From NCBI RefSeq assembly GCF_000025725.1, contig NC_013943.1, positions 1,736,001 to 1,800,000 of the forward strand: a DNA stretch of 64,000 nucleotides, in the 5' to 3' direction. The notes below the pieces were generated by a model, which worked only from the letters and a program-made list of their open reading frames with translations, was not told where the DNA came from and did not search any database. The stretch is from Denitrovibrio acetiphilus DSM 12809. GTDB lineage: Bacteria > Chrysiogenota > Deferribacteres > Deferribacterales > Geovibrionaceae. Positions 23,044-34,791 of the stretch are shown here, piece after piece; the stretch's first letter is position 1; every line of letters starts with the position of its first letter. A program made the position numbers and the translations under genes.

Positions 23044-24234
23044 TTACATGCCAATTTTACAAGGCTGTGTATCACAGTTTACACCTGCGTCGAGAAAGTA
23101 ATATCTATCGATATCAGCAGGTTGACAATCATCAGCAAGGAAGAAGTAAACTTCTCCGGCTCTGCCGCCTGATGCACAATGAAACACAACTCTGCCTTCC
23201 TGAGGCATTTTTGAAATGAAAGCGTCACAGCCTTCTGAAACTTCTTTTGAAGAAACCTGAATGCTTCCGGGGATTTTTCCCGCAGCGACTTCATTGTCGT
23301 TACGAACGTCCACGATAGTTACATCGGCAGGACGTGTGGCAGGATCAAGAAGCTTTTCTACGAAGAAAGAAGTAATGAGTATCCCAGGCTCTTCGACAGG
23401 GAAACCGCTTGCAGAATCAACAGCAACAGGCTTTTTAGCAACAGGAGCGTCACCGCCAGGAGCCATAGGCTGCCCCGCAGCTTTCCACTCAGGAGCCCCG
23501 CCAGCATATACAAGTATATTTGTGTATCCCATTTCAAGCATTTTTTCAGCTACGATATGAGATTTCTCACACTTGTATCCGCCACAGAAAGGAACTGACA
23601 AGGTATTTTTATCAGCAGGCAGATTGCCTTTAAATTCATCAAATTTTGTATCAGGAACAACAATAGAACCAGCTATTGTAGACTTCTTGAATTTTCTTTC
23701 AGGACGGGCATCTATGAATGTTGCACCTTTTGCGTGAAGCTTTTTAGCTCCTTCAAGTGAAACCTCATTGTATGTGCCGTTTTTGTCCCAGTCAGGCTGA
23801 CCGTCAAGATAAATCTTAACATTTGTATAGCCTTTTTCTTTAAGTTTTTCAGCAACGATAAGTGATTTTTCGCACTTTACACCGCCGCAAAAAGTCACAA
23901 CATAGTCTTCAGGACTGACTTCTTTAGCAAAAGCAGGAAAGAATTCATCGAACTTTGTGTCAGGGATAAGTTTTGAAGTCGGGATGTGGGCTCCGTCGTA
24001 CTTTCTTTCAGGACGGGCATCAACGAGTGTGCCTCTGGATTTGTCCCAAACACCGTTTCCGATTATCATTTTAATTTCATCAATTTTCACAAGCTCAAAG
24101 TCGGCAGCTTTAGCCTGATCAGCAACACTTGCTTTTGCCTCAGCAACAGGCTTTTTAGCAGCCTGTCCGCAACCAAGCACAATAAGTGCAACCAACAGTG
24201 CAATAACAGTAAGCATTCTGCTCATTAAACGCAT
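23044..24234 (-). CDS. Lipoprotein with three rhodanese domains
   Basis: A 396-aa predicted periplasmic lipoprotein (lipobox VLGC, Cys22). Three rhodanese domains each begin with a VDAR/VDVR-type strand and carry a candidate persulfide-forming Cys: Cys116 (FCGGVKCEKS), Cys217 (FCGGYKCEKS) and Cys353 (HCASGGRAGE). Domains 1 and 2 are close duplicates, each with a second Cys five residues on; domain 3 differs. A periplasmic sulfur-transfer role beside a Psr/Phs-like enzyme recalls the Sud polysulfide carrier of Wolinella, which is inference. The ATG at 24234 has GGAGG 6 nt upstream. Confidence 0.9.
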   Translation of the reverse strand: MRLMSRMLTVIALLVALIVLGCGQAAKKPVAEAKASVADQAKAADFELVKIDEIKMIIGNGVWDKSRGTLVDARPERKYDGAHIPTSKLIPDTKFDEFFPAFAKEVSPEDYVVTFCGGVKCEKSLIVAEKLKEKGYTNVKIYLDGQPDWDKNGTYNEVSLEGAKKLHAKGATFIDARPERKFKKSTIAGSIVVPDTKFDEFKGNLPADKNTLSVPFCGGYKCEKSHIVAEKMLEMGYTNILVYAGGAPEWKAAGQPMAPGGDAPVAKKPVAVDSASGFPVEEPGILITSFFVEKLLDPATRPADVTIVDVRNDNEVAAGKIPGSIQVSSKEVSEGCDAFISKMPQEGRVVFHCASGGRAGEVYFFLADDCQPADIDRYYFLDAGVNCDTQPCKIGM

Positions 24235-24455
24235 ATACAACCTCCAACGTTTTTAATGATTCGCTCTACTTTTACTCAAAACAATGTTTTAATTAGTTTA
24301 TATTAATATTAGAATAATAATATATTCAACTATTCATATCTTAATATAAACCTATATAATTGTTTACTTAACAGTTTCTTAGCTCATAGAACATAAGAAG
24401 TGTTATTTTCAACAACAGTTTGATTATACATTATATCTTAGGATTCGCAATGTTT

Positions 24456-24467
24456 ATTGTATACAAT
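24456..24467. promoter_or_regulatory. Palindromic operator-like site ATTGTATACAAT
   Basis: Perfect 12-bp palindrome upstream of the rhodanese lipoprotein. A possible -10 (TATAAT, minus strand, 24430-24435) would place the site over the -35 region. The same core occurs at 28724, 32190 and 34360. Confidence 0.6.
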
Positions 24468-24483
24468 TTATCAAATTTTCAAC

Positions 24484-24510
24484 AAAAAAAAGGCAGCCCG
24501 AAGACTGCCT
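24484..24510 (-). terminator. Terminator after the NrfD-like gene
   Basis: AGGCAG and CTGCCT stem with an 8-nt loop; on the minus strand a run of seven or more T follows. It separates the Psr-like operon from the rhodanese gene. Confidence 0.8.
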
Positions 24511-24534
24511 TATGCTATTGATATAATTAGTTAA

Positions 24535-25746
24535 TTAATCATGTTCAGGAGTTTTAAGATCCATAAACTTCTCAGCTGCGAAATAGAGCACTAATGCGGT
24601 GCCTATCCCGAGAAGAAATATGCCCCACTCAGCGGCTGACGGTGAATATACAGCAAGCCCGCTTGCATCAGCGTGAACTCTCGCTCCAGGGTTTGCAGCT
24701 CTCATAACAGGAAGCTGTCCCGCAACTATAAAGTTTACTCTGGTAAAGAACAGACCGACCATAAAAACAAGTCCGGCAAGCCCGTACACTTTTGTGTTCC
24801 CTTTCGCTAAGAGAAGCAATGCAAGAGGAACTATTATGGCAAGTCCGATCTCGCCAATCCAGAAATGTGGAGCAAGTGGACCGCTTATCAAAGCCATAAC
24901 AGACTGGTATGCTCCGTCAGGTGAGTTGAAGAGAGATGTAAGTATCTTCCAGAGATACAGAAAAATCATCATCCCTATTCCTCCGCTCATAAGCTTCGAG
25001 AGTGATTTCATTGCACCATTAAGCTCAGAAGGGATATTAAACTTATAGACAATATTGTGTACAAGCATAAGAAGTCCCGCACCTGCAGTAATACCTGATA
25101 TCACAAGGAAAGTGGAGAAGTATATACCGTGAAACCAAGGTCTTGCGTTAAGCGAACCAAATACAAATCCAAGGTTTGATGTTGCAAGTGTACCTACCAC
25201 AAGAGCGAGGAACCCGAGGATGCCTGCCATTTTGTGATCCTTTGCAGTCGGGTGAGCCTTAAAAACAATAACCAGCTCAAGAGCAAGGATAACAAGCTCG
25301 ATAGAGTAGAAAACACCCATCCAGAGAATCGGAGCTGCGAGGTTAGGAGAAAGCATCATATAAATGATCATTCTGATCGGATGCCCTATCTCCATAAGGA
25401 TCTGAGTGAAACCGGCAAGGAGTACAAATGTCGCAAGGACAACTATTCTTCTGCTGATTTTGTTAAATGACTCAAATCCGAAAGCGTGCCCCAGACCGCC
25501 GATGAAGGCGAGACCTGTGGATGTGATAACAAAATATGCATATGTACCGATAAGGAGTCCCCAAGGAACCTCTCTGTTAACGGCATACATTTCTTCGTGA
25601 CCGTTGATGAAAACTATCAGAGCAGTCACAGCGCCTATTCCGGCAAGTACCAGACCGAGAAGTATCAGCGGCATTACGGGAATATCTTTATTATAAGTGA
25701 TCAGCCCAGCAAGTGGACTTTTCTTTGCTTCTGCGTGTGATGACAT
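24535..25746 (-). CDS. NrfD/PsrC-family membrane quinone-interacting subunit
   Basis: A 403-aa polytopic inner-membrane protein with about ten hydrophobic helices and no heme-ligand pattern, as in NrfD/PsrC proteins that exchange electrons and protons with the quinone pool. It would anchor the FeS and Mo subunits encoded just upstream. It is 14 nt past the FeS gene stop, in the order catalytic, FeS, membrane, with a terminator after it. The length is close to long PsrC-type members (about 400 aa). Confidence 0.92.
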   Translation of the reverse strand: MSSHAEAKKSPLAGLITYNKDIPVMPLILLGLVLAGIGAVTALIVFINGHEEMYAVNREVPWGLLIGTYAYFVITSTGLAFIGGLGHAFGFESFNKISRRIVVLATFVLLAGFTQILMEIGHPIRMIIYMMLSPNLAAPILWMGVFYSIELVILALELVIVFKAHPTAKDHKMAGILGFLALVVGTLATSNLGFVFGSLNARPWFHGIYFSTFLVISGITAGAGLLMLVHNIVYKFNIPSELNGAMKSLSKLMSGGIGMMIFLYLWKILTSLFNSPDGAYQSVMALISGPLAPHFWIGEIGLAIIVPLALLLLAKGNTKVYGLAGLVFMVGLFFTRVNFIVAGQLPVMRAANPGARVHADASGLAVYSPSAAEWGIFLLGIGTALVLYFAAEKFMDLKTPEHD

Positions 25747-25760
25747 TATTAATCCTCCGC

Positions 25761-26315
25761 CTACTTTATGTAAAAGAGTCTTGGCTTTGTATTTCTGTCT
25801 GCCTTAAGCTGGTAAGTAGCATTTTTGCCTTTCAGCTTAGCTGCTTCTGACTCAGGATCATTCAGGTCGCCGAAAACACGTACCTTTGTAGGACATGTTT
25901 CAACACAAGCCGGTTCTCTGCCTTCTGCCAGCCTGTGGTAGCAGAAAGTACATTTTTCTATTGCGTGGTGTTTCTCAGACACAAATCTTGCATCATACGG
26001 GCAAGCTGTCATACATGCTTTGCAGATGATACATCTTTTATAGTCGATGAGTACAACACCCTCATCTGTTCTGTATGTCGCAGATGTAGGACATACTGTG
26101 GCACATGGTGTGTTTTCGCAGTGCTGACACTGTGAAGGTTCAAACTCCATGCTGAGGTTAGGATATGTCCCCTGAACAGGCAGTTCAGCAACCCATATTC
26201 TATAAAGCTCATCACCAACTTCAACGCCGTTTTCGAACTTACAGGCAACAGTGCATGCCTTACAGTTCAGGCATTTTTTAGCATCTAATACAATTCCGAG
26301 TTTCTTTTCGCTCAT
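25761..26315 (-). CDS. Four-cluster ferredoxin-type electron transfer subunit (PsrB/DmsB-like)
   Basis: A 184-aa protein with four cysteine groups binding up to four [4Fe-4S] clusters: CLNCKACTVAC, CQHCENTPCATVCP, CIICKACMTACP and CTFCYHRLAEG with CVETCP. There is no own signal peptide, so it is expected to be exported with the Tat-bearing catalytic subunit. It lies 11 nt after the catalytic gene and transfers electrons between the NrfD-like subunit and the Mo site. Confidence 0.95.
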   Translation of the reverse strand: MSEKKLGIVLDAKKCLNCKACTVACKFENGVEVGDELYRIWVAELPVQGTYPNLSMEFEPSQCQHCENTPCATVCPTSATYRTDEGVVLIDYKRCIICKACMTACPYDARFVSEKHHAIEKCTFCYHRLAEGREPACVETCPTKVRVFGDLNDPESEAAKLKGKNATYQLKADRNTKPRLFYIK

Positions 26316-26326
26316 TGTTGCCTCCG

Positions 26327-28660
26327 TTACGCCTTAGTAATTGTTACAAATGTTTCGTGCAGCGCAGCATTACCAGAGATAGGTTCGATATAATCTTCGA
26401 GAATCTCTGCCTGTGAGGCACCTTTATTGTAAACGTGGCTAAGCTGCGGTGAGAGACGACCGAAACCGTGAGCATAAAATACGCAGTCAGGGCGAATCTT
26501 CTCTGTTACGTATGCCGCAAGCTCCTGCTCTCCAACACTGCTTGTCACCTTCACCCTGTCGCCGTCAACAATGTTAAGCTTTTTCGCCTCAGCACTGTTT
26601 AACCACAAAGTGTTCTCTTTCTGAATCTCCCAGAGGAAGCCGTTGTTCTGAGTTCCTGTATGGGTGTTCCACGCGTGACGTCCGAGGATGAAACGATATT
26701 TACCCGGCTCAGGCTGGCGGGGTGCTCTATATGTAGGGAGCCCGTCAAGACCTTCCGCAACATATTTAACGTTAAGCAGCTCAATTTTACCTGTTCTGGT
26801 TTTGAACCTGTACCCCGGTTTCCTTGTATTTCCGTATGTTGGTTTATCGGAAAGATAGAAAACGCCCTCTTTAAGCATCTGCTCATATGCCCCCGGATGT
26901 CCGGAGAGCTGGTATTTAATATAGTCCTGAATAGGTTTATTAAGAATGCCGTCAACAATTTCATCTTTGAAATCATCTACTTCAAATTCGTCAGCATCAT
27001 CCCAGAGTTCAGGAATTTTAACCATTTCATTAACCACACCCTGAGCTATGTCGAACATTGATTTTGTTTTGAAAACAGGTTCAACAACAGCCTGACGGAA
27101 TGTTGCAATAGGCCAGATACCGGAAAGTGAGTGAACCACATCCCAGCGTTCAAGGTATGTTGACTCAGGGATAACAAGGTCAGCATAATAGGCAGCTTCT
27201 GTCATCTGAATGTCTATAGCACAGATGAATTCCATCTTGTCTATCATCTGCATTGTTTTCTTTCTGTTAGGTACAGCTTCTATAAAGTTTTGCTTATAGA
27301 TAACCATGGCATCGACCTTATAAGGATCTTCCCTGAGAACTGCATCTCTGAGACGAGTCCATGAACCGTCTTTTTCAGAAAGGTAAGTACATGAATCTTT
27401 CGGAAGACCGGAGCTGGATCTTTCATCATCGGGAAGATTATTTGCAAAAGCCCCGTATGAAGCAACATCTATCCTGCTTTCTGCCTGCTCGTAATAAGGG
27501 AAAAGTACATCATACTTTTTTATAGGAACAGGAGACTTAGGACATATACCGCCCTCAGTGTCCCAACATCCGCATATGGCTGAAAGTATTGCGCAGGCAC
27601 GGCGGAAGTAAACATCGTTCACATACCAGCTTGTTCTGCGTCCGGGATATGCTATAGAGCGAGGTGCATATTTGGCAAACTCTCTGGCTGTCCAGTAGAT
27701 TTCACTCGCAGGGATTTCACATTCATTTTCAGCCCACTCAGGAGTGTATTGTTTAACATGAGCTTTAAGCTCTTCAAAACCATGAGTGTATTCGTTAACA
27801 AAAGCTTCATCGTGAAGATTTTCGCTTATGATAACATTAATCAGGGCAAGAACAAAAGCGAGGTCTGTCCCCGGCTTTACAGGATACCACTTATCAGCTT
27901 TCGCTGCGGTAGCTGTGTATCTCGGGTCAAGATAAACTATCTGCTGCCCTTTCGGTCTGTTTTTCTGAATATCTATTGAATCAGGTGTGACTATAGCCTC
28001 TGCCCTGTTTGAACCAAACATGATAGCAAACATAGCATTGTGCATATCTGCATCAGGGAAAACCCCGAAAACAGAAGACCACCCCTGAATAACAGAAGAA
28101 AGGCAAAGGGTTGGGTGCCTTACGGTGTTGAGTGAACCGTATGACTGTACAAGATAATGGAACATGTGCTCCTGAAAGCCCTCAGAAGATGCAAACAGGA
28201 CAGAAGATCTGTTCTGATTTTTCACTTTATGCTCAGCAAGTTTTTCTGCAAGCATTTTGAAAGCTTCTTCATAGGATATCTTCTTCCACTTCCCCTCACC
28301 CCTTTCACCGACTCTGACAAGAGGAGTTGTAAGTCTTTCATGATTGTACGGCTCTTCAGCGCCAGCGTTACCACGAGCACAAAGCATTGCACGGCTTTTG
28401 AAAAACTTTGGGTTTGGATTGAGTTTCTTTATTTTCCCGTCTACAACGTGAGCAAAGAAACCACATTTGTTAACACACATCTCACAGCTAGATGCGATGT
28501 GTTTTTCGCCTTTTTCACCAGTAGGTGCTGGTGCATCATGACCACTGCTGGCCACTGCTTTAAAGGTAGTTAGGTTAGCAGCAAATACCCCAGCAGCTAC
28601 TGCACCACCTGATGCCGCAAGAAAACGCCTACGGCTCAGACTCATACCGGAAAGCTTCAT
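26327..28660 (-). CDS. Psr/Phs/Arr-type molybdopterin oxidoreductase catalytic subunit
   Basis: A 777-aa catalytic subunit. Tat signal SRRRFLAAS (9-17). The [4Fe-4S] site is Cys59, Cys62, Cys66 and Cys94 (C-x2-C-x3-C spacing). Cys186 in RHPTLCLSS sits where polysulfide, thiosulfate and arsenate reductases have the Mo-ligating Cys. With the FeS and NrfD genes this makes a periplasmic respiratory complex. The neighbouring rhodanese, FccAB and lack of ars genes favour a sulfur substrate (polysulfide, thiosulfate or tetrathionate), but the sequence alone does not decide. AGGAGG precedes the ATG. An inverted repeat overlaps its -10. Confidence 0.92.
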   Translation of the reverse strand: MKLSGMSLSRRRFLAASGGAVAAGVFAANLTTFKAVASSGHDAPAPTGEKGEKHIASSCEMCVNKCGFFAHVVDGKIKKLNPNPKFFKSRAMLCARGNAGAEEPYNHERLTTPLVRVGERGEGKWKKISYEEAFKMLAEKLAEHKVKNQNRSSVLFASSEGFQEHMFHYLVQSYGSLNTVRHPTLCLSSVIQGWSSVFGVFPDADMHNAMFAIMFGSNRAEAIVTPDSIDIQKNRPKGQQIVYLDPRYTATAAKADKWYPVKPGTDLAFVLALINVIISENLHDEAFVNEYTHGFEELKAHVKQYTPEWAENECEIPASEIYWTAREFAKYAPRSIAYPGRRTSWYVNDVYFRRACAILSAICGCWDTEGGICPKSPVPIKKYDVLFPYYEQAESRIDVASYGAFANNLPDDERSSSGLPKDSCTYLSEKDGSWTRLRDAVLREDPYKVDAMVIYKQNFIEAVPNRKKTMQMIDKMEFICAIDIQMTEAAYYADLVIPESTYLERWDVVHSLSGIWPIATFRQAVVEPVFKTKSMFDIAQGVVNEMVKIPELWDDADEFEVDDFKDEIVDGILNKPIQDYIKYQLSGHPGAYEQMLKEGVFYLSDKPTYGNTRKPGYRFKTRTGKIELLNVKYVAEGLDGLPTYRAPRQPEPGKYRFILGRHAWNTHTGTQNNGFLWEIQKENTLWLNSAEAKKLNIVDGDRVKVTSSVGEQELAAYVTEKIRPDCVFYAHGFGRLSPQLSHVYNKGASQAEILEDYIEPISGNAALHETFVTITKA

Positions 28661-28723
28661 ATAGGGACCTCCTAGTATTTCAATAACTATCAGTTATTTA
28701 TAAACTTCACGCCAGTTCATGTT

Positions 28724-28744
28724 TTGTATACGGTATACAATATA
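28724..28744 (-). promoter_or_regulatory. Operator overlapping the -10 of the Psr-like operon
   Basis: TTGTATAC-G-GTATACAA (28724-28740) is a perfect 8-1-8 inverted repeat. A minus-strand promoter TTGCAA (28762-28767), 17 nt, TATATT (28739-28744) runs into it, so a bound protein would block the start site. This layout suggests repression. Confidence 0.6.
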
Positions 28745-28767
28745 CATAGCATAAGATCGTATTGCAA

Positions 28768-29234
28768 GTGCTTTCTGTACAGTTTTATCAAATTTTATAA
28801 CCGTGTTTCCTGAACTAAACGAAACGCATAAAGCACTATTACATTTAACAAAAATACATGGTTTATAACTGAATTATATTACTATTAATTCAGTAGGAAT
28901 ACCCATGAGCGAAACGAGTTTGATTTATTAAATAATCAACTCTAACATTACTTTACAAAAACACCTCTTATGTATAAAAATAAGAATGAAAAAATATAAA
29001 AATATACAGAAATTACGATTTAACTGTATGCAAACAATCTTATCAGCAACAATTGCGATATATAGTACAGTAAACGACTATAATTAGATTTTATATATAT
29101 TCATAAAAATTTTGACTAAATATGACAACAGAGCACAAAAAACACATGCTGAACATTTAAACTTTTCAGTGTTATCATATCTATCTTGCTTATATAGATA
29201 AGGTCGAGATCATGCAAAGCTCTTAAAAAAACGT
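28768..29234. other. AT-rich intergenic region, nothing recognised
   Basis: About 470 bases between the Psr-like promoter and the porin terminator. All frames are short; no RNA gene or repeat copy is seen. Confidence 0.4.
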
Positions 29235-29270
29235 AAAAAGGCAGCCCGCACACGCCTTCAGCGGGCTGCC
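29235..29270 (-). terminator. Terminator after the porin gene
   Basis: GGCAGCCCGC and GCGGGCTGCC form a perfect 10-bp stem with an 11-nt loop, followed by TTTTT on the minus strand. Confidence 0.85.
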
Positions 29271-29296
29271 CTATATTTCAGCTTATCACGCAGATA

Positions 29297-31234
29297 TTAG
29301 TATCTGTATGTGAAAGAAGCGTAAACTTTATCAACTTTATCTGTAACAGCCATCATAGTATCAAAGGCTGTCGCATCTTCGATCTTTTTAGGAGCGCCAA
29401 GGTAAGAACCTGAGCCTGTGTATTCGTAATCAAAGTGCTGGTATCCGATAGTAGCAAAAAGTCTGTCGCCAACGATCGGCTGATGATAGTAGACATCGTA
29501 AACCTTACCGCGAACAGCAAGTTTAGACCCTACAAGGTCGTCCTCAGCAGCAGTCATAGATACCCAATATTTACTACCCTGATTGTATTCAAAGCCGAAT
29601 TTACCACCTGTGAGAGGTATCTCAGGAGTAGCAACACCAACCCAAACACTTGTACCGGTTTTACTATCTTTAGAACCAAGCATCCTGTCCATATCCATAA
29701 ACTGATACATAGCAGACCTTGATCTGCCGTCAGGATGAGATTTGGACATAGCAAAAGAAGTAAACCATGAAAATCCGAATGTTTCACCCTGAGCAAGAAG
29801 TGAGTGCCATTCCATGTCACCAACTTCTGCGGTGGCTTCAAGCCTAGAAGAAGAGCCAGAATAGTTAGGAGTTATCTGGTATTCATCATATGAACCATCC
29901 GCACTGAGATCAGTATTCTGACCAACTACGGTAAACGGCATTACTGCTGCACCTGTGAAACCATCTGTCACACCAAAACCTCTTGCAAAGTTGTACCACA
30001 GCTTATACTGGTCATCATCGTAAAACTTAACAATAACACCAAGAAACTCAACGTCATCTACTTCAGGTGAAGCGATCAGCCCGTTATTAGCCGCCATAGC
30101 ATTGCTTGAACCCCAGCCTGACTCAAAGCCTTTACCGTAACAAATCTTAATGAATGATCCTGGCAGAAATTCTAAAAGGTTTTCAAAATCGAACTGAAGT
30201 GAAGCACCGTCAAACTGCCACTGAATTATGTGAGAGAGAGGTGAACCGCCGAGAGTTGCGTATTCTGAATTTTCTTTACCGGGACCGAAAGTTGAAGGCC
30301 TTCTACCAAATGAGAAGTGCCAGCCAAGATCACCGATTTCATTTTTATAAACAAAATAAGCTCTCTCAACATGCAGTTTGTCATCAGTAGGAACAGAACC
30401 TGCATTACCGTCAAGGTACATAGACTTATATGATCCGTCCATCCACTGAACGTCACTTGCGTCAGACCATACTTTGTTCATAACAAGACGACCAGCAAAG
30501 GATAGCTTGTCATTGACACGGCTGTTAAGTCTGATTCTGAGCCTGTTAGTAAAAAGTGAACTGTTGTTATGGTCATATTTGCGCGGCTTCATATTAGAAA
30601 AAAGAGTTTTCATCATCTGAAGCTGAGTTGCTGAAAGAGTGGTAGATGAGAGCATATCCTGCATATATACCATCATTGCAGCTTCCATCTGAGATGCGCC
30701 ATAATTGGTCATCATGTTACCAATAGCTGTCTGAACCTCTGCTGTTCCCATCCATGAAGTTATTTCAGGATTAGTCATCATAGCACCTGTCACATCAGGA
30801 TTAGCAGCTAAATCTGTTATAAACTGATAAAGCTCCTGACCATAGACAGAGTTTGCAGCAAACGGGTCAAATGCGTCATTAAAACCATTATTGTTTGTAT
30901 CCCATGACTCTGTAGCGTTTGCAGGATTACCATCAGCATCAGTGTTGATCATGTAACCTCTGAGCCACAGCCCCATCATGTCGTTACCCATCGCAGGAAG
31001 AGCCCTGACGTCTTTGTAGCTTATGCTGTCAACTCTCGTACGGAGCTCAACACCAATGTCTACTTTGTCTTTAATACGGTGTACTTCGTTTTTGTCCACA
31101 CGCCTGGACATTTTAAGTACTTCATCCTGAAGCTCTGTAATCTGGGATTTCAGCTCTTCAAGAGTGACATCCGCTGCAAATGCAAAAGATGCAGGGACAA
31201 GGACCAGAAGAATCAAAGATATAATTTTCTTCAT
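29297..31234 (-). CDS. Outer-membrane beta-barrel protein (DUF3373-like porin)
   Basis: A 645-aa exported protein. Signal peptide of about 20 residues ending AFA, then a coiled-coil-like stretch (TLEELKSQITELQDEVLKM) and LRTRVDSISYKD. The body has alternating hydrophobic strands, and the last residues are SFTYRY, a C-terminal aromatic typical of BAM-assembled barrels. The pattern recalls DUF3373 proteins of anaerobic respirers. A role in passing sulfur compounds across the outer membrane is only inferred from its neighbours. It has its own terminator. Confidence 0.8.
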   Translation of the reverse strand: MKKIISLILLVLVPASFAFAADVTLEELKSQITELQDEVLKMSRRVDKNEVHRIKDKVDIGVELRTRVDSISYKDVRALPAMGNDMMGLWLRGYMINTDADGNPANATESWDTNNNGFNDAFDPFAANSVYGQELYQFITDLAANPDVTGAMMTNPEITSWMGTAEVQTAIGNMMTNYGASQMEAAMMVYMQDMLSSTTLSATQLQMMKTLFSNMKPRKYDHNNSSLFTNRLRIRLNSRVNDKLSFAGRLVMNKVWSDASDVQWMDGSYKSMYLDGNAGSVPTDDKLHVERAYFVYKNEIGDLGWHFSFGRRPSTFGPGKENSEYATLGGSPLSHIIQWQFDGASLQFDFENLLEFLPGSFIKICYGKGFESGWGSSNAMAANNGLIASPEVDDVEFLGVIVKFYDDDQYKLWYNFARGFGVTDGFTGAAVMPFTVVGQNTDLSADGSYDEYQITPNYSGSSSRLEATAEVGDMEWHSLLAQGETFGFSWFTSFAMSKSHPDGRSRSAMYQFMDMDRMLGSKDSKTGTSVWVGVATPEIPLTGGKFGFEYNQGSKYWVSMTAAEDDLVGSKLAVRGKVYDVYYHQPIVGDRLFATIGYQHFDYEYTGSGSYLGAPKKIEDATAFDTMMAVTDKVDKVYASFTYRY

Positions 31235-31405
31235 ACAATACTCCCTAGTATTTATATGTGTCAGTCACCGCCTGTATGAACGGCAAGAGACAATAGAGGA
31301 CCGTTGGGATTTGTCCTCTTCAATCCTTATTAACCATGCAAAAAATCCCCCGCAGAACTTTCAGCAAGGAGTGTCGCAGCAAGCCACTAAACTCTTTATT
31401 AAGAA

Positions 31406-32098
31406 TCACTTACTTTCTGTAAAAACATCCTCCATAATCGGGTCAATATCATTTAAAAAGCCCGAAAGTATTACTGAAAAATCACGATAGAACGGCATGT
31501 CATCCCTCTTTGCCACCGCCGCGGCAAAGTGATCTGCGAGTACCGGTCCGTAATTCTCTAACACATTGTATAAATTATGCAGAGAACCATACCAGCTTTC
31601 CAGATTTTCCGGTTCTGACAGTTTTTTGAACAGCATAGAGATAAACTCGAGAACAATATAAACATGATCCTCAAGCTCGGTCACGTCTTCGCCTAAGACA
31701 AAACCTGCCCGTGCCATCCATTCCCGTATTTTAAATGTGCTTTCGCCATAAAGCATCTTATTATCTTCGGTATAAAAAGAGATATAAGGGACTATTTTAT
31801 TACCGTCCATATCCTGCTCGAACAGTTTGATATAATCGCTCTCCATCTCTGTGTGATCATAAAGTGTTATTTTTGAATCTGAATAGTCTGAAATGAAATC
31901 TGCAAACGCTTCCCAGTTATCGTTAAGTGTGTCATAAACATCTTCTTCCGGATACCTGAAAACAAGAGAAAGAAACATAGAAACATTTGAAACAGCCCCA
32001 AATGTTTCGGCGTCCAGCTCAGCATCAGAAAGCATAGATTTAGCTTTCTCATAATTGCCTGCTAATACGTACATTTTAAAATCATTATATATAAACAT
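31406..32098 (-). CDS. TorD/DmsD-family chaperone for molybdoenzyme maturation
   Basis: A 230-aa, all-helical cytoplasmic protein with the TorD-family pattern: an N-terminal SMFLSLVFRYP segment, a central YIKLFEQDMDGN...VPYISFY block (the Y/E-x-x-LF and P-Y-x-S-x-Y signature), and ESTFKIREWMARAG. Such chaperones hold the Tat signal of a Mo enzyme until cofactor is inserted. The likely client is the Psr-like catalytic subunit, since both genes carry the same operator-like site. It is a monocistron facing the porin. Confidence 0.85.
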   Translation of the reverse strand: MFIYNDFKMYVLAGNYEKAKSMLSDAELDAETFGAVSNVSMFLSLVFRYPEEDVYDTLNDNWEAFADFISDYSDSKITLYDHTEMESDYIKLFEQDMDGNKIVPYISFYTEDNKMLYGESTFKIREWMARAGFVLGEDVTELEDHVYIVLEFISMLFKKLSEPENLESWYGSLHNLYNVLENYGPVLADHFAAAVAKRDDMPFYRDFSVILSGFLNDIDPIMEDVFTESK

Positions 32099-32136
32099 TA
32101 CAATAAACCTTTCCGCACTAATCTCTTATTTATTAG

Positions 32137-32199
32137 ACTATATTTTTTTTTTAAAGATTTGTAAAGGGATTTTACAAAAGAAATGTATATTGTATACAC
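32137..32199 (-). promoter_or_regulatory. Promoter and TTGTATACAC site of the TorD-like gene
   Basis: Minus-strand TTTACA, 17 nt, TATAGT (32137-32142). A near-palindrome ATTGTATACACT lies at 32189-32200, about 64 bp upstream of the expected start, a position that would suit an activator. Confidence 0.5.
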
Positions 32200-32252
32200 T
32201 TTAAAAATATGGGGAGACAGCGCATCCCCCCATTTACTCTTATATATAAGCA

Positions 32253-33554
32253 TTATAAAAGCATGTCACTCCAAATGCTTGTGGCCCAGTCCCGAGCATG
32301 TTTCCCGAAAAGAGCATTTCTTGTGGGGGAAACACCGCCGGAAACAGACATAATTCTGTCAATCTTTTCATCATACCTATACACTGCCGACACAAAAATC
32401 CCTTCAGTCTCATTTATCAGTGAATAGCATGTATTAACGTATGTCGGCTCAACAGGATCAAGCCCTTTCAGCTTACGAACCATCTGAACCGCGGCAACTT
32501 TAGCCATTGAGTTTGCAACATATCCCGATTTCGGCACGCCGCCAACAGCACCGTTATGGGTTGCATCACCTATAACATGTACACTGTCATATTTATATGA
32601 CTCAAATGTCTTAGGGTACGCCCTAACCCAGTCATCGCCCTCATTGCTCATAAGCCCAAGATTAAAAGCAGTCTGATTTGCTTTCATTGCAGGTATGATA
32701 TTCGCAACCTCAGGAACAATATCCCCCTGCTCTGAAACAACTCTACCAGTGGACGCATCAACGGACTTAATGAAATTGTCAGGCACATACTCTATAATGC
32801 CCTGATAGTAATCTTCCCATGCCGCCTTGAACAAAGGTCCTTTTGATACAATACCATCGTTGGAATCGAAAACAATGATCTTTGACCCCGGCTTATATTT
32901 CTTTATAAAATTTGCAATGAGCGAAATTCTTTCGTAAGGTCCGGGCGGACACCTGTATGGAGTGGGAGGTACGGACAAAAGAACAACTCCGCCAGGCTCC
33001 ATAGCTTTCAGTCTTTCGGCGAGAAGAACAGTTTCATGCCCTGCCTTCATAGCAGCAGGAAACATCTCAATGGCAGCAGGATTGTTCAATCCTTCAATTG
33101 TTTCATATTTATATGATATCCCCGGAGAAACAAGAAGCAGGTCGTACTCAAGGACACCCTTAGTAGTCATAAGCTTTTTATTTACTGCATCCAGATCTTT
33201 AGCCTCAGCATGGACAACTTTTACACCATAATTCTTAACAAGCCCGTCATAGCTCTTAGTAATATCCTTCATTGTGCGGAAACCGCCGATAACCCAGTTA
33301 CTGACCGGACAGGATATAAACTTTTCCTGACGCTCAACCATAACAACCTCGACAGAAGGATCCTCCAGCTTAATGTACTTTGCTGCTGTTGCTCCACCCC
33401 AGCCGCCTCCAAGTATAACTATTCTTTTACCTGACTTCGGCATAATAACACCGGAACCTTTGCTTACGCTGTCATTGTGGGAGCATCCGAAAATAGCCGT
33501 GCCTGCCGCTGCGGCTGTAGTGTATTTTACAAAATTACGTCGTGATATACTCAT
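32253..33554 (-). CDS. fccB: Flavocytochrome c sulfide dehydrogenase flavoprotein subunit
   Basis: A 433-aa FAD protein exported by Tat (SRRNFVKYT at about 4-12). The FAD motif GGGWGGATAAKYI follows at about 49. The two cysteines that form the redox disulfide are present in EKFISCPVSNWVIGG and TPYRCPPGPYERI, and the C-terminal FAD/cap signature VHVIGDATH is conserved. It would oxidise sulfide (or reduce polysulfide) in the periplasm and pass electrons to the cytochrome encoded 3 nt upstream. Confidence 0.93.
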   Translation of the reverse strand: MSISRRNFVKYTTAAAAGTAIFGCSHNDSVSKGSGVIMPKSGKRIVILGGGWGGATAAKYIKLEDPSVEVVMVERQEKFISCPVSNWVIGGFRTMKDITKSYDGLVKNYGVKVVHAEAKDLDAVNKKLMTTKGVLEYDLLLVSPGISYKYETIEGLNNPAAIEMFPAAMKAGHETVLLAERLKAMEPGGVVLLSVPPTPYRCPPGPYERISLIANFIKKYKPGSKIIVFDSNDGIVSKGPLFKAAWEDYYQGIIEYVPDNFIKSVDASTGRVVSEQGDIVPEVANIIPAMKANQTAFNLGLMSNEGDDWVRAYPKTFESYKYDSVHVIGDATHNGAVGGVPKSGYVANSMAKVAAVQMVRKLKGLDPVEPTYVNTCYSLINETEGIFVSAVYRYDEKIDRIMSVSGGVSPTRNALFGKHARDWATSIWSDMLL

Positions 33555-33557
33555 AAT

Positions 33558-34154
33558 CTACTCCCCCTGTCTTAAGCCTGACAGATAATTTGCCAGAGCA
33601 TTTATCTGCTCATCATCAAGGTCTGCAACCATGCCCATCTCTTCCGACTTAATAGCCCCTGAACGGTAGCGCTTAAGAACTTCTTTAAGATAACCGAGGT
33701 TTTGTCCGCCAATATGCGGATATTCGTCCAACCCCTCCCCTCTTGCTCCATGGCAGTCCATACAGCCGTTTTCTGCCGCAACCTGCCTGCCCATTTTACT
33801 TTTTGCAGAGTCAGTATTATTAGTAGAGTTAACCCACCCCTGAGAGGAATAATACAGAGCTATAGACTCAAGCTGTTCATCCGAATAACCTTTTGCAATA
33901 ATCGACATCTCAACACTCCCCTCACGCTCCCCTCCAGAGAACTCTTTCAACACTTTTGCCATATAGTCCGGATTTTGCCCGCCTATGGTTGCAATATATT
34001 TTCCCGGTGTATTGCCTGATGTTCCATGACAACCCGCGCAGGTTTTACCAAGCCGGGCTCCTTCTGAAACATTTGCTTCTGAAAATCCGGCAACTGGAAG
34101 GATCAGAACCATAGCTGTAATTACAAAATTGAAAAGCCATTTTGATTTTTTCAT
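33558..34154 (-). CDS. fccA: Diheme cytochrome c subunit of sulfide dehydrogenase
   Basis: A 198-aa c-type cytochrome with a signal peptide (ending near PVAGFSEA) and two c4-like domains, each with a heme motif: CAGCH (about 40) and CMDCH (about 131). Each is followed by a Met-containing stretch (KVLKEF, then MSIIAKG; and EEMGMV) able to give the distal ligand. The ATG at 34154 follows GGAGG at good spacing, preferred to the overlapping GTG at 34160. First gene of fccA-fccB. Confidence 0.9.
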   Translation of the reverse strand: MKKSKWLFNFVITAMVLILPVAGFSEANVSEGARLGKTCAGCHGTSGNTPGKYIATIGGQNPDYMAKVLKEFSGGEREGSVEMSIIAKGYSDEQLESIALYYSSQGWVNSTNNTDSAKSKMGRQVAAENGCMDCHGARGEGLDEYPHIGGQNLGYLKEVLKRYRSGAIKSEEMGMVADLDDEQINALANYLSGLRQGE

Positions 34155-34461
34155 ACGCACCTCCGTACTAGTTATTTACAAAAAAAATGCTGTGAACAAT
34201 TCTACCATATTAAAGAATTATTTCTTATAATACTTTTTTAATCTTATTTTACATCATTGTCAATACGGGCACAATATGAACTGAATATACCTAATAATCA
34301 AACATTACTATATGTGAACTATATCACTTTATTCAGCATATTATCAATATAAGCAGAAAATTGTATACAATGTACAAAAACCCCTTGAAATAATATTTCC
34401 CCAGTGTTATCTTACGAACAAACAAACACCAATTTATTTGGTTTTAGTAAGGAGAATTCAT
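34155..34461. promoter_or_regulatory. Divergent control region with ATTGTATACAAT operator
   Basis: About 300 bases between fccA and a small exported protein. The perfect palindrome ATTGTATACAAT lies at 34360-34371. A plus-strand promoter TTGAAA (34385-34390), 17 nt, TATCTT (34408-34413) follows, putting the operator centre near -55. No clear fccA promoter stands out. Confidence 0.55.
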
Positions 34462-34791
34462 ATGTTCAGAAAAGCTATGCTTGTTGTTCTTGCTGTTGTT
34501 TTCATGGCTACTAACGTTTTCGCTATGGATTTCAACGCTGGTGACGGTAGAAAAGGTAAAAGACTTTGGAAAAGATATCACACAAAATGCGCTGACGGTA
34601 CAAAACTCAGTGCTAAAGCCGGTGCTGCTACACGCACACAGGCTCAGTGGAAAGACGCTTTCCAGAACCCTGCAAAACTTCCTTGCGGCGGTCAGTGGGA
34701 AGGAATCAAAACTACTGAAGATATGCAGGACGCTTTCAGATATCTCTACGATCACGCAGCTGACTCTGACCAGCCAGAAACTTGTGGCTAA
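34462..34791 (+). CDS. Small exported cytochrome-c-like protein without heme motif
   Basis: A 109-aa protein with a signal peptide cut near FAMDF and a mature part of about 85 residues. The pattern (GRKGKRLWKRYHTKCADG, then TRTQAQWKDAF and a helical DAFRYLYDHAADSDQPE) resembles small monoheme cytochromes c, but there is no CxxCH; Cys remain only as KCADG, PCGG and TCG. It may be a heme-less relative with a metal or thiol role. AAGGAG precedes the ATG at 34462. Codon use is strongly biased and a strong promoter and terminator flank it, which suggests high expression. Confidence 0.72.
   Translation: MFRKAMLVVLAVVFMATNVFAMDFNAGDGRKGKRLWKRYHTKCADGTKLSAKAGAATRTQAQWKDAFQNPAKLPCGGQWEGIKTTEDMQDAFRYLYDHAADSDQPETCG

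Follow-up and report, generated by a model that had tools for sequence, protein, structure and literature searches.

Parts of the locus described here resemble several known systems. The polysulfide reductase of Thermus thermophilus (2vpw) has an ABC architecture, flavocytochrome c sulfide dehydrogenases (1fcd, 3vrd, 5n1t) are built from two subunits, and the operon RS06465-06490 of Desulfurivibrio dismutans, among whose products is a predicted lipoprotein with three rhodanese domains, is reported to show strongly raised expression when sulfur is disproportionated (PMC12142623). In Deferrivibrio metallireducens and Deferribacter, a porin and a rhodanese have been proposed for polysulfide uptake (PMC11896075, PMC6896113), while the Srr operon of Bacillus selenitireducens, as outlined in the available part of a secondary source, contains A, B and C subunits, a chaperone and rhodaneses (PMC12481199). 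We analysed a 64,000-nucleotide window (bases 1736001-1800000) of the 3,222,077-bp one-contig genome of Denitrovibrio acetiphilus N2460T, in which genes for a PsrABC-type reductase, a triple-rhodanese protein and a porin-like protein stand beside fccAB. The family of this organism (f1 below) appears as Denitrovibrionaceae in GTDB and as Geovibrionaceae in NCBI, as stated in the accessible part of a recent paper (PMC13186404).

The window enzyme shares the ABC architecture of the Thermus reductase and an aligned cysteine at the molybdenum (Mo) site, whereas its PsrC is a longer, ActC-like form (403 versus 250 residues). Its FccAB has the same two subunits and cysteine motifs as the solved sulfide dehydrogenases but is encoded next to psr, under a common operator. 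The psr, porin and rhodanese genes are held in common with Deferrivibrio metallireducens and Deferribacter, members of the same phylum; however, no FccAB is described with their psr genes, and the rhodanese gene of D. autotrophicus lies away from psr (PMC11896075, PMC6896113). The Srr operon, compared by description, shares the subunits, chaperone and rhodaneses, but neither FccAB nor a porin is mentioned in the accessible portion of the source (PMC12481199). In our set, a locus of strain AMeS2 (L148) is inferred to be the D. dismutans operon, because strain name and gene content agree. It has the same TorD-like gene, PsrABC and triple-rhodanese lipoprotein, with a PsrA of a sister clade; no match to FccAB or to the DUF3373 porin was found at this locus. 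In its rhodanese gene, an in-frame TGA occupies the position of Cys123 of the window protein, and D. dismutans, unlike the window genome, possesses Dsr/Apr (PMC12142623).

All eight genes of the cluster are encoded on the minus strand within 23044-34160 and are supported by Pfam matches (Table 1). They correspond to the full parts list of the original prediction: reductase, porin, chaperone, FccAB and triple-rhodanese lipoprotein on one strand. The cluster is not a single operon, since terminator-like hairpins, on the minus strand like the genes, split it into four units (fccAB, torD-porin, psrABC and the rhodanese gene) and each unit has its own copy of a palindrome. On balance, we favour the view that these units form a co-regulated periplasmic sulfur module, in which a polysulfide-type reductase is combined with a sulfide oxidase. 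The enzyme types are known ones, a sulfur reductase and its carrier beside a sulfide oxidase; their common switch seems to be tied to acetate-burning genes.

The operator-like sites proposed earlier proved to be real. Comparison of six intergenic stretches yielded 22 12-mers common to at least four of them, against 0-2 in 20 shuffles, and these resolve to a 20-bp palindrome, GTATATTGTATACAATATAC. When the full 20-mer was searched in the 3.22-Mb genome with up to 3 mismatches, 7 sites were recovered and none with the reversed control; four of the seven lie in the cluster, one before each unit. The 12 family genomes gave 71 sites versus 2 control sites. Within 350 bp before a cluster gene were found 29 of the 71, namely before psrA (11), the rhodanese gene (7), fccA (6) and torD (5), as assigned by script with approximate fccA starts in G010 and G011 and with the torD and porin genes of G010 left out. 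The psrA palindrome is positioned 70-77 bp upstream in 10 of the 12 genomes and 20 bp upstream in an eleventh. In the window and its relatives, 52 regions upstream of cluster genes were compared; the core TTGTATACAA was exact in 13 of them and had at most one mismatch in 21 (shuffle rates of 0.1% and 5%, respectively), figures that express conservation and not probability because the relatives are not independent. Four family genomes carry fccAB away from the psr cluster, and in every one of them the exact core is still found before fccA; outside f1 the core was not found in the 17 fccA upstream regions examined (2-3 mismatches at best). Operators of the FNR or CRP type were rejected, as the six intergenic stretches contained no FNR-like site and two CRP-like ones, at fccA only.

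The same palindrome occurs about 56 bp before tandem GntR genes with FCD domains, and the remaining sites of the genome precede nuoA and sdhC. The nuoA 20-mer is conserved letter for letter in 12 of 12 family genomes, the adjacent gene having been checked in G000 only. Upstream of the first GntR gene, all 23 loci examined, which represent five families, contain the palindrome (2-6 mismatches), 19 of them with 4 mismatches or fewer, a level reached by 0.2% of shuffled 290-bp stretches. Both GntR and FCD domains are present and a palindrome precedes the pair's own gene, as in a regulator of the GntR/FadR type. Judging from these sequences, the pair looks self-regulated through the palindrome and is most likely its reader. 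Six exact-core sites fall outside the cluster; those at L217 and L221, inside genes, and at L224, before a gene without Pfam match, were not counted as regulon sites. A core site also precedes a fumarase gene and another is found about 500 bp upstream of a gene for cytochrome oxidase, while a DUF4212/sodium:solute symporter pair is preceded by a perfect site in G001 and a two-mismatch site in G002. Two sites fit no pattern that we could name, one in L267 ahead of a CorA gene and one in L277 close to a Na+/H+ antiporter gene. We consider it reasonably probable that the GntR/FCD pair, across at least five Deferribacterales families, recognises GTATATTGTATACAATATAC and controls a global respiration regulon that includes PsrABC and FccAB; its members would be nuoA, succinate dehydrogenase, psrABC, the rhodanese, the porin and chaperone and FccAB, and probably fumarase and the sodium:solute symporter. 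Since nuoA and sdhC share the palindrome, the module probably responds to the state of acetate and tricarboxylic acid (TCA) respiration. A single literature search, in open papers, turned up no described regulator of these genes in the phylum. As a separate observation, the L224 core (own genome ~3168303, L224:1110-1472) lies about 30 bp before the gene of a 120-aa protein that by eye recalls DsrE-type sulfur-relay proteins and has no Pfam match.

The Mo subunit was described in the original prediction as Psr-like, and profiles and tree agree. Against the PhsA profile PsrA scored 507.5 bits (cut-off 694), against ArrA 204.7 (cut-off 1600) and against TtrA 83; an arsenate or tetrathionate reductase was dropped on these scores. 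Its best PDB match is Thermus PsrA (2vpw), whose cysteine aligned with Cys186 we take to be the Mo ligand, and the N-terminal [4Fe-4S] cysteines, Cys59/62/66/94, are invariant across 13 sequences. A quick maximum-likelihood tree, which had 63 rows, included 31 of 78 PsrA loci but no SrrA, TtrA or Wolinella PsrA, and came with long-branch warnings, places PsrA among the type-a enzymes of the phylum. Its sister clade contains Desulfurivibrio sp. AMeS2, G047 and G049 of the same phylum, and Desulfuromonadales; a true PhsA, the second Psr-like enzyme of the genome and the ArrA-like protein of the same genome all fall outside. By sequence, PsrA thus belongs to the PsrA/PhsA/SrrA lineage of Mo-bis(pyranopterin guanine dinucleotide) (Mo-bisPGD) enzymes, apart from ArrA and TtrA and not in an arsenate or selenate clade. 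It was not filed as PhsA itself because the PhsA equivalog cut-off is not reached, and canonical PhsA was rejected as the true PhsA (1037 bits, G008) falls elsewhere in the tree. A sulfur substrate does not follow from this placement, which does not discriminate between polysulfide and selenite: the selenite reductase SrrA is assigned to the same lineage (PMC7331816, PMC10100899). PsrB matches Fer4_11, with its 16 cysteines in four groups, and reached 175.8 bits with DsrO (cut-off 200). An AlphaFold2 model of PsrC (mean predicted local distance difference test, pLDDT, 79), with 10 long helices, has ActC of alternative complex III as its best fold match (8k9e_C, TMq 0.78) and Thermus PsrC (2vpw_C) as the best one outside that complex.

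Types a and b of psr stem from an old duplication; the two occur in tandem in G002, and type b is the only one in G001. The type-b psrA of G002 (L100:8288-10690) is broken by an in-frame TAG. G005 has a second psrABC (L104:9751-13821) with a type-a PsrA (71%) but with a PsrB (63%) and a PsrC (41%) that are just as distant as those of type b; in sequence it looks as if recombined. The ArrA-like protein of the window's genome (2246245-2248783, L204) scored 1164 bits against a cut-off of 1600.

FccAB was identified as a flavocytochrome c sulfide dehydrogenase, as predicted, from its FCSD domains, cysteine motifs and cytochrome partner gene. FccB matches FCSD_central (1e-36) and FCSD-flav_bind (6e-21) and, among solved sulfide dehydrogenases, 5n1t_A (E 1.9e-92) and 1fcd_A (4e-82); it carries the twin-arginine translocation (Tat) motif SRRNFVK. 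The cysteines of its SCPVSN, RCPPGPY and TCYSL motifs align with those of 5n1t and are presumably the FAD-linking and redox cysteines. FccA, a Pfam Cytochrom_C protein with CxxCH motifs at residues 41 and 133, matches cytochrome c4 and the FccA structures 3vrd_A and 1fcd_C. FccA adjoins FccB in 29 of the 30 FccB loci of relatives, the remaining one lying on a 3.1-kb fragment. Divergently from fccA, on the plus strand (34438-34791), lies the gene of an exported-looking 117-aa protein with a faint cytochrome likeness, no heme motif, and no Pfam or NCBIfam match.

The rhodanese carrier predicted beside Psr is supported, since three Rhodanese stretches were found (1.2e-37) behind a lipobox-like LIVLGC read by eye. 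Their motifs are CGGVKC (118-123), CGGYKC (219-224) and CASGGR (355-360), and C118/C123, C219/C224 and C355 are invariant in all 19 aligned homologues. Most homologues carry CGGxxC in the first two domains, whereas domain 3 has the usual CxxGxR loop, so that the exported protein resembles a Sud/rhodanese carrier through CASGGR. The model (pLDDT 89) gave rhodanese-type best fold matches, general ones only.

In 14 rhodanese homologues, all next to psrAB, in-frame TGA codons were observed, 32 in total. Twenty-one align to the window protein, and 20 of these coincide with the second cysteine of a CGGxxC loop, at position 123 (13) or 224 (7); the other 11 belong to frame extensions outside the window protein. 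Downstream of many of the TGA codons the sequence can form a hairpin (17 codons from 6 loci were folded, without control). From the alignment, TGA at positions 123 and 224 is a probable selenocysteine in these relatives, which points to the second cysteine of CGGxxC as chemically active. A 2026 review lists the rhodanese selenoprotein forms UxxS, UxxG, CxU and UxxxxU, and the CxxxxU form is not among the motifs in its available part (PMC13188914); nor is selenocysteine mentioned in the main text of the D. dismutans operon account, as far as that text was available (PMC12142623). Selenocysteine was rejected for the window's own rhodanese, which contains no TGA. The sole TGA of the G005 rhodanese gene (L105:4929-6152) replaces a conserved Trp and is for this reason read as a lesion.

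The chaperone matches Nitrate_red_del (4.9e-19) and, below cut-off, NCBIfam TorD (8e-13). For the protein of 29297..31234, DUF3373 (PF11853, 6.6e-152) was the only Pfam match, none being obtained to porin families, and we infer from its sequence that it may be a porin. An ExtI-type porin was rejected, as ExtI belongs to a different porin family (PMC5877670).

Table 1. Features of the psr-fccAB cluster of D. acetiphilus (window coordinates unless stated) and related loci.
Feature	Position	Strand	Remarks
fccA, diheme cytochrome c subunit of sulfide dehydrogenase	33558..34160	-	Cytochrom_C, two CxxCH
fccB, Tat-exported FAD subunit of flavocytochrome c sulfide dehydrogenase	32253..33554	-	FCSD_central, FCSD-flav_bind
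TorD/DmsD-like putative maturation chaperone for Mo subunit	31406..32098	-	Nitrate_red_del
Outer-membrane porin-like barrel, DUF3373	29297..31234	-	PF11853
psrA, Tat-exported Mo-bisPGD catalytic subunit, PsrA/PhsA/SrrA lineage	26327..28660	-	Profiles, tree
psrB, four-[4Fe-4S] electron-transfer subunit	25761..26315	-	Fer4_11, 16 Cys
psrC, NrfD-family membrane quinol/quinone subunit, long form	24535..25746	-	NrfD 1.5e-25
Periplasmic lipoprotein, three rhodanese domains	23044..24240	-	Rhodanese x3
Palindrome before fccA	34356..34375		3 mismatches to GTATATTGTATACAATATAC, exact core TTGTATACAA
Palindrome before torD	32185..32204		3 mismatches; core 1 mismatch
Palindrome before psrA	28726..28745		2 mismatches
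Palindrome before rhodanese gene	24452..24471		3 mismatches, exact core
Terminator-like hairpin after fccB	32209..32233		11 pairs, T tail
Terminator-like hairpin after porin gene	29240..29270		10-bp perfect inverted repeat, T run
Terminator-like hairpin after psrC	24490..24511		9 pairs, T tail
Tandem GntR/FCD regulator pair	Own genome 1876694-1878027		L226, L232; outside window
TGA-containing rhodanese loci next to psrAB	L148, L152, L162, L166, L178, L179, L181, L182, L187, L189, L195, L197, L198, L200

The order fccAB-torD-porin-psrABC-rhodanese is conserved in the f1 genomes G000, G002, G003, G004, G006, G008 and G009, and G001 has the same order with a type-b psrABC. FccAB is thereby linked to the psr cluster in 8 of 12 family genomes and located elsewhere in G005, G007, G010 and G011. 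Among 78 PsrA loci of named genomes, taken from the best 80 of 560 matches, excluding the window's own genome and with many loci terminating at contig ends, the porin and the TorD-like gene each occurred in 38, the rhodanese occurred in 35, and the 3 loci with FccB all belong to Deferribacterota. In 59 genomes (PsrA of type a or b at 45% identity or more; FccB at E below 1e-80), listings gave both proteins in 17, PsrA only in 7 and FccB only in 13. Based on these locus counts and this distribution, the reductase-porin-rhodanese set is a widespread module recurring in many phyla, to which FccAB is a family-level addition. G013, G018, G020, G025 and G027 have PsrA and lack FccB, in line with reports that Deferribacter autotrophicus is unable to oxidise sulfide (PMC6896113) and, in the accessible part of a 2026 paper, that the genus Deferribacter is without enzymes of sulfide or sulfur oxidation (PMC13186404).

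In the module as we picture it, the four co-regulated units would work as one periplasmic system with two electron arms. PsrABC would be a menaquinone-linked molybdoenzyme acting on sulfane sulfur, most likely polysulfide, in the reductive direction that is usual for such enzymes by analogy; the TorD-like chaperone would help to load the Mo cofactor before Tat export. Sulfane sulfur, the presumed cargo of the DUF3373 barrel, would enter through it and be handed to PsrABC by the triple-rhodanese lipoprotein. FccAB would convert periplasmic sulfide to sulfane sulfur and pass electrons to cytochrome c, and from there to nitrate/nitrite reduction or an oxidase. Both arms would draw on one sulfane-sulfur pool and may be connected by the rhodanese, the whole forming a sulfur-using branch of respiration and not a disproportionation pathway. 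Separate quinone- and cytochrome-c-linked arms had been predicted earlier and are supported; two arms of sulfur chemistry with a common control agree with the profiles, the gene order and the regulation. The reversible sulfide/polysulfide cycle of the same prediction was not demonstrated; PsrA and FccB are distributed independently over the 59 genomes, and elemental sulfur reduction is recorded as negative for D. acetiphilus (PMC6896113 Table 2).

Several points weigh against a working module of this kind. The S0-negative record, together with nitrate as the sole acceptor found for D. acetiphilus in the available part of its description (PMC3035293), weakens the case for a functional sulfur reductase, and the authors of PMC6896113 already doubted that Psr enzymes in species of this kind have a sulfur role. 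One literature search found no published account of D. acetiphilus oxidising sulfide. SrrA, of the same lineage, is a selenite reductase with chaperone and rhodanese genes in its operon, as far as the accessible text goes (PMC12481199). As to the operator, searching the genome for the exact 10-bp core by itself gives no enrichment (8 sites versus 11 in the control), no good site precedes fccA in G003, G004 and G006 (core with 2-4 mismatches), and none precedes the type-b psrA of G001 and G002.

In one of two live alternatives, PsrABC would run oxidatively, as a sulfide:menaquinone oxidoreductase, so that both arms oxidise sulfide during nitrate respiration, a reading that we find rather unlikely. 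Menaquinone, with a potential of about -70 mV, lies above the polysulfide/sulfide couple, and sulfide oxidation would therefore be downhill. That couple is placed at -260 mV in the available part of one source (PMC10100899), nitrate is the only known acceptor and S0 reduction is negative (PMC6896113, PMC3035293, the latter available in part), and a reverse action has been suggested for some Epsilonproteobacteria (PMC6896113); co-regulation with FccAB points the same way. However, D. autotrophicus has psr yet cannot oxidise sulfide (PMC6896113), and the relative in D. dismutans is up-regulated in disproportionation with Psr as the reductive branch, according to the accessible account (PMC12142623). 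That same relative, with the split YedE-type sulfur transporter pair and small rhodanese found elsewhere in the genome of D. acetiphilus (L212:3822-5463), would favour sulfur disproportionation, with Psr making sulfide and FccAB or another branch oxidising sulfur. We consider this highly improbable, and the disproportionation-like metabolism proposed at first is not supported: no DsrA match was obtained and AprA reached at most 29 bits against a cut-off of 642 (Sat and Sox were not searched for), and no oxidative branch to sulfate is visible because FccAB stops at sulfane sulfur.

In the other live alternative, PsrABC would be an SrrA-like reductase of selenium or arsenic oxyanions, with the rhodanese and porin handling selenite or selenide, which appears unlikely. 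Beside the lineage and operon of SrrA (PMC7331816, PMC10100899, PMC12481199, each available in part), this idea draws on a selenite-linked cluster of Geobacter with the porin and rhodanese genes ExtI and ExtH (PMC5877670) and on Seleniivibrio, of the same family, which respires selenate and arsenate (a reference in PMC11944866, itself available in part). In the window, though, the ExtH profile reached 21.6 of 200 bits, below cut-off, and ExtI is of another porin family; the genome encodes a separate ArrA-like protein (1164 bits), FccAB is under the common operator, and the nearest relative with tested expression is a sulfur enzyme. A chance neighbourhood, in which FccAB is an independent sulfide-detoxification enzyme beside psr, is quite unlikely in our view. 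It agrees with the occurrence of each protein without the other (FccB in 13 and PsrA in 7 of the 59 genomes), but not with the linkage in 8 of 12 family genomes or with the operator core kept in 4 of 4 unlinked ones.

The co-regulated module that we favour would bear on the environment from which the organism came. D. acetiphilus was isolated, as described in the available part of PMC3035293, from a nitrate-treated column modelling a souring oil reservoir, with H2S present. If the GntR/FCD regulon is as proposed, it is the carbon/TCA state of an acetate-oxidising cell that would decide when sulfide is oxidised and sulfur reduced, with sulfur compounds acting at most as additional signals, and the operator would provide a handle on respiratory control in this phylum. 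Oil reservoirs are injected with nitrate to counter H2S, and an FccAB tied to the regulon of a nitrate- and acetate-respiring bacterium would give D. acetiphilus a direct route for sulfide removal.

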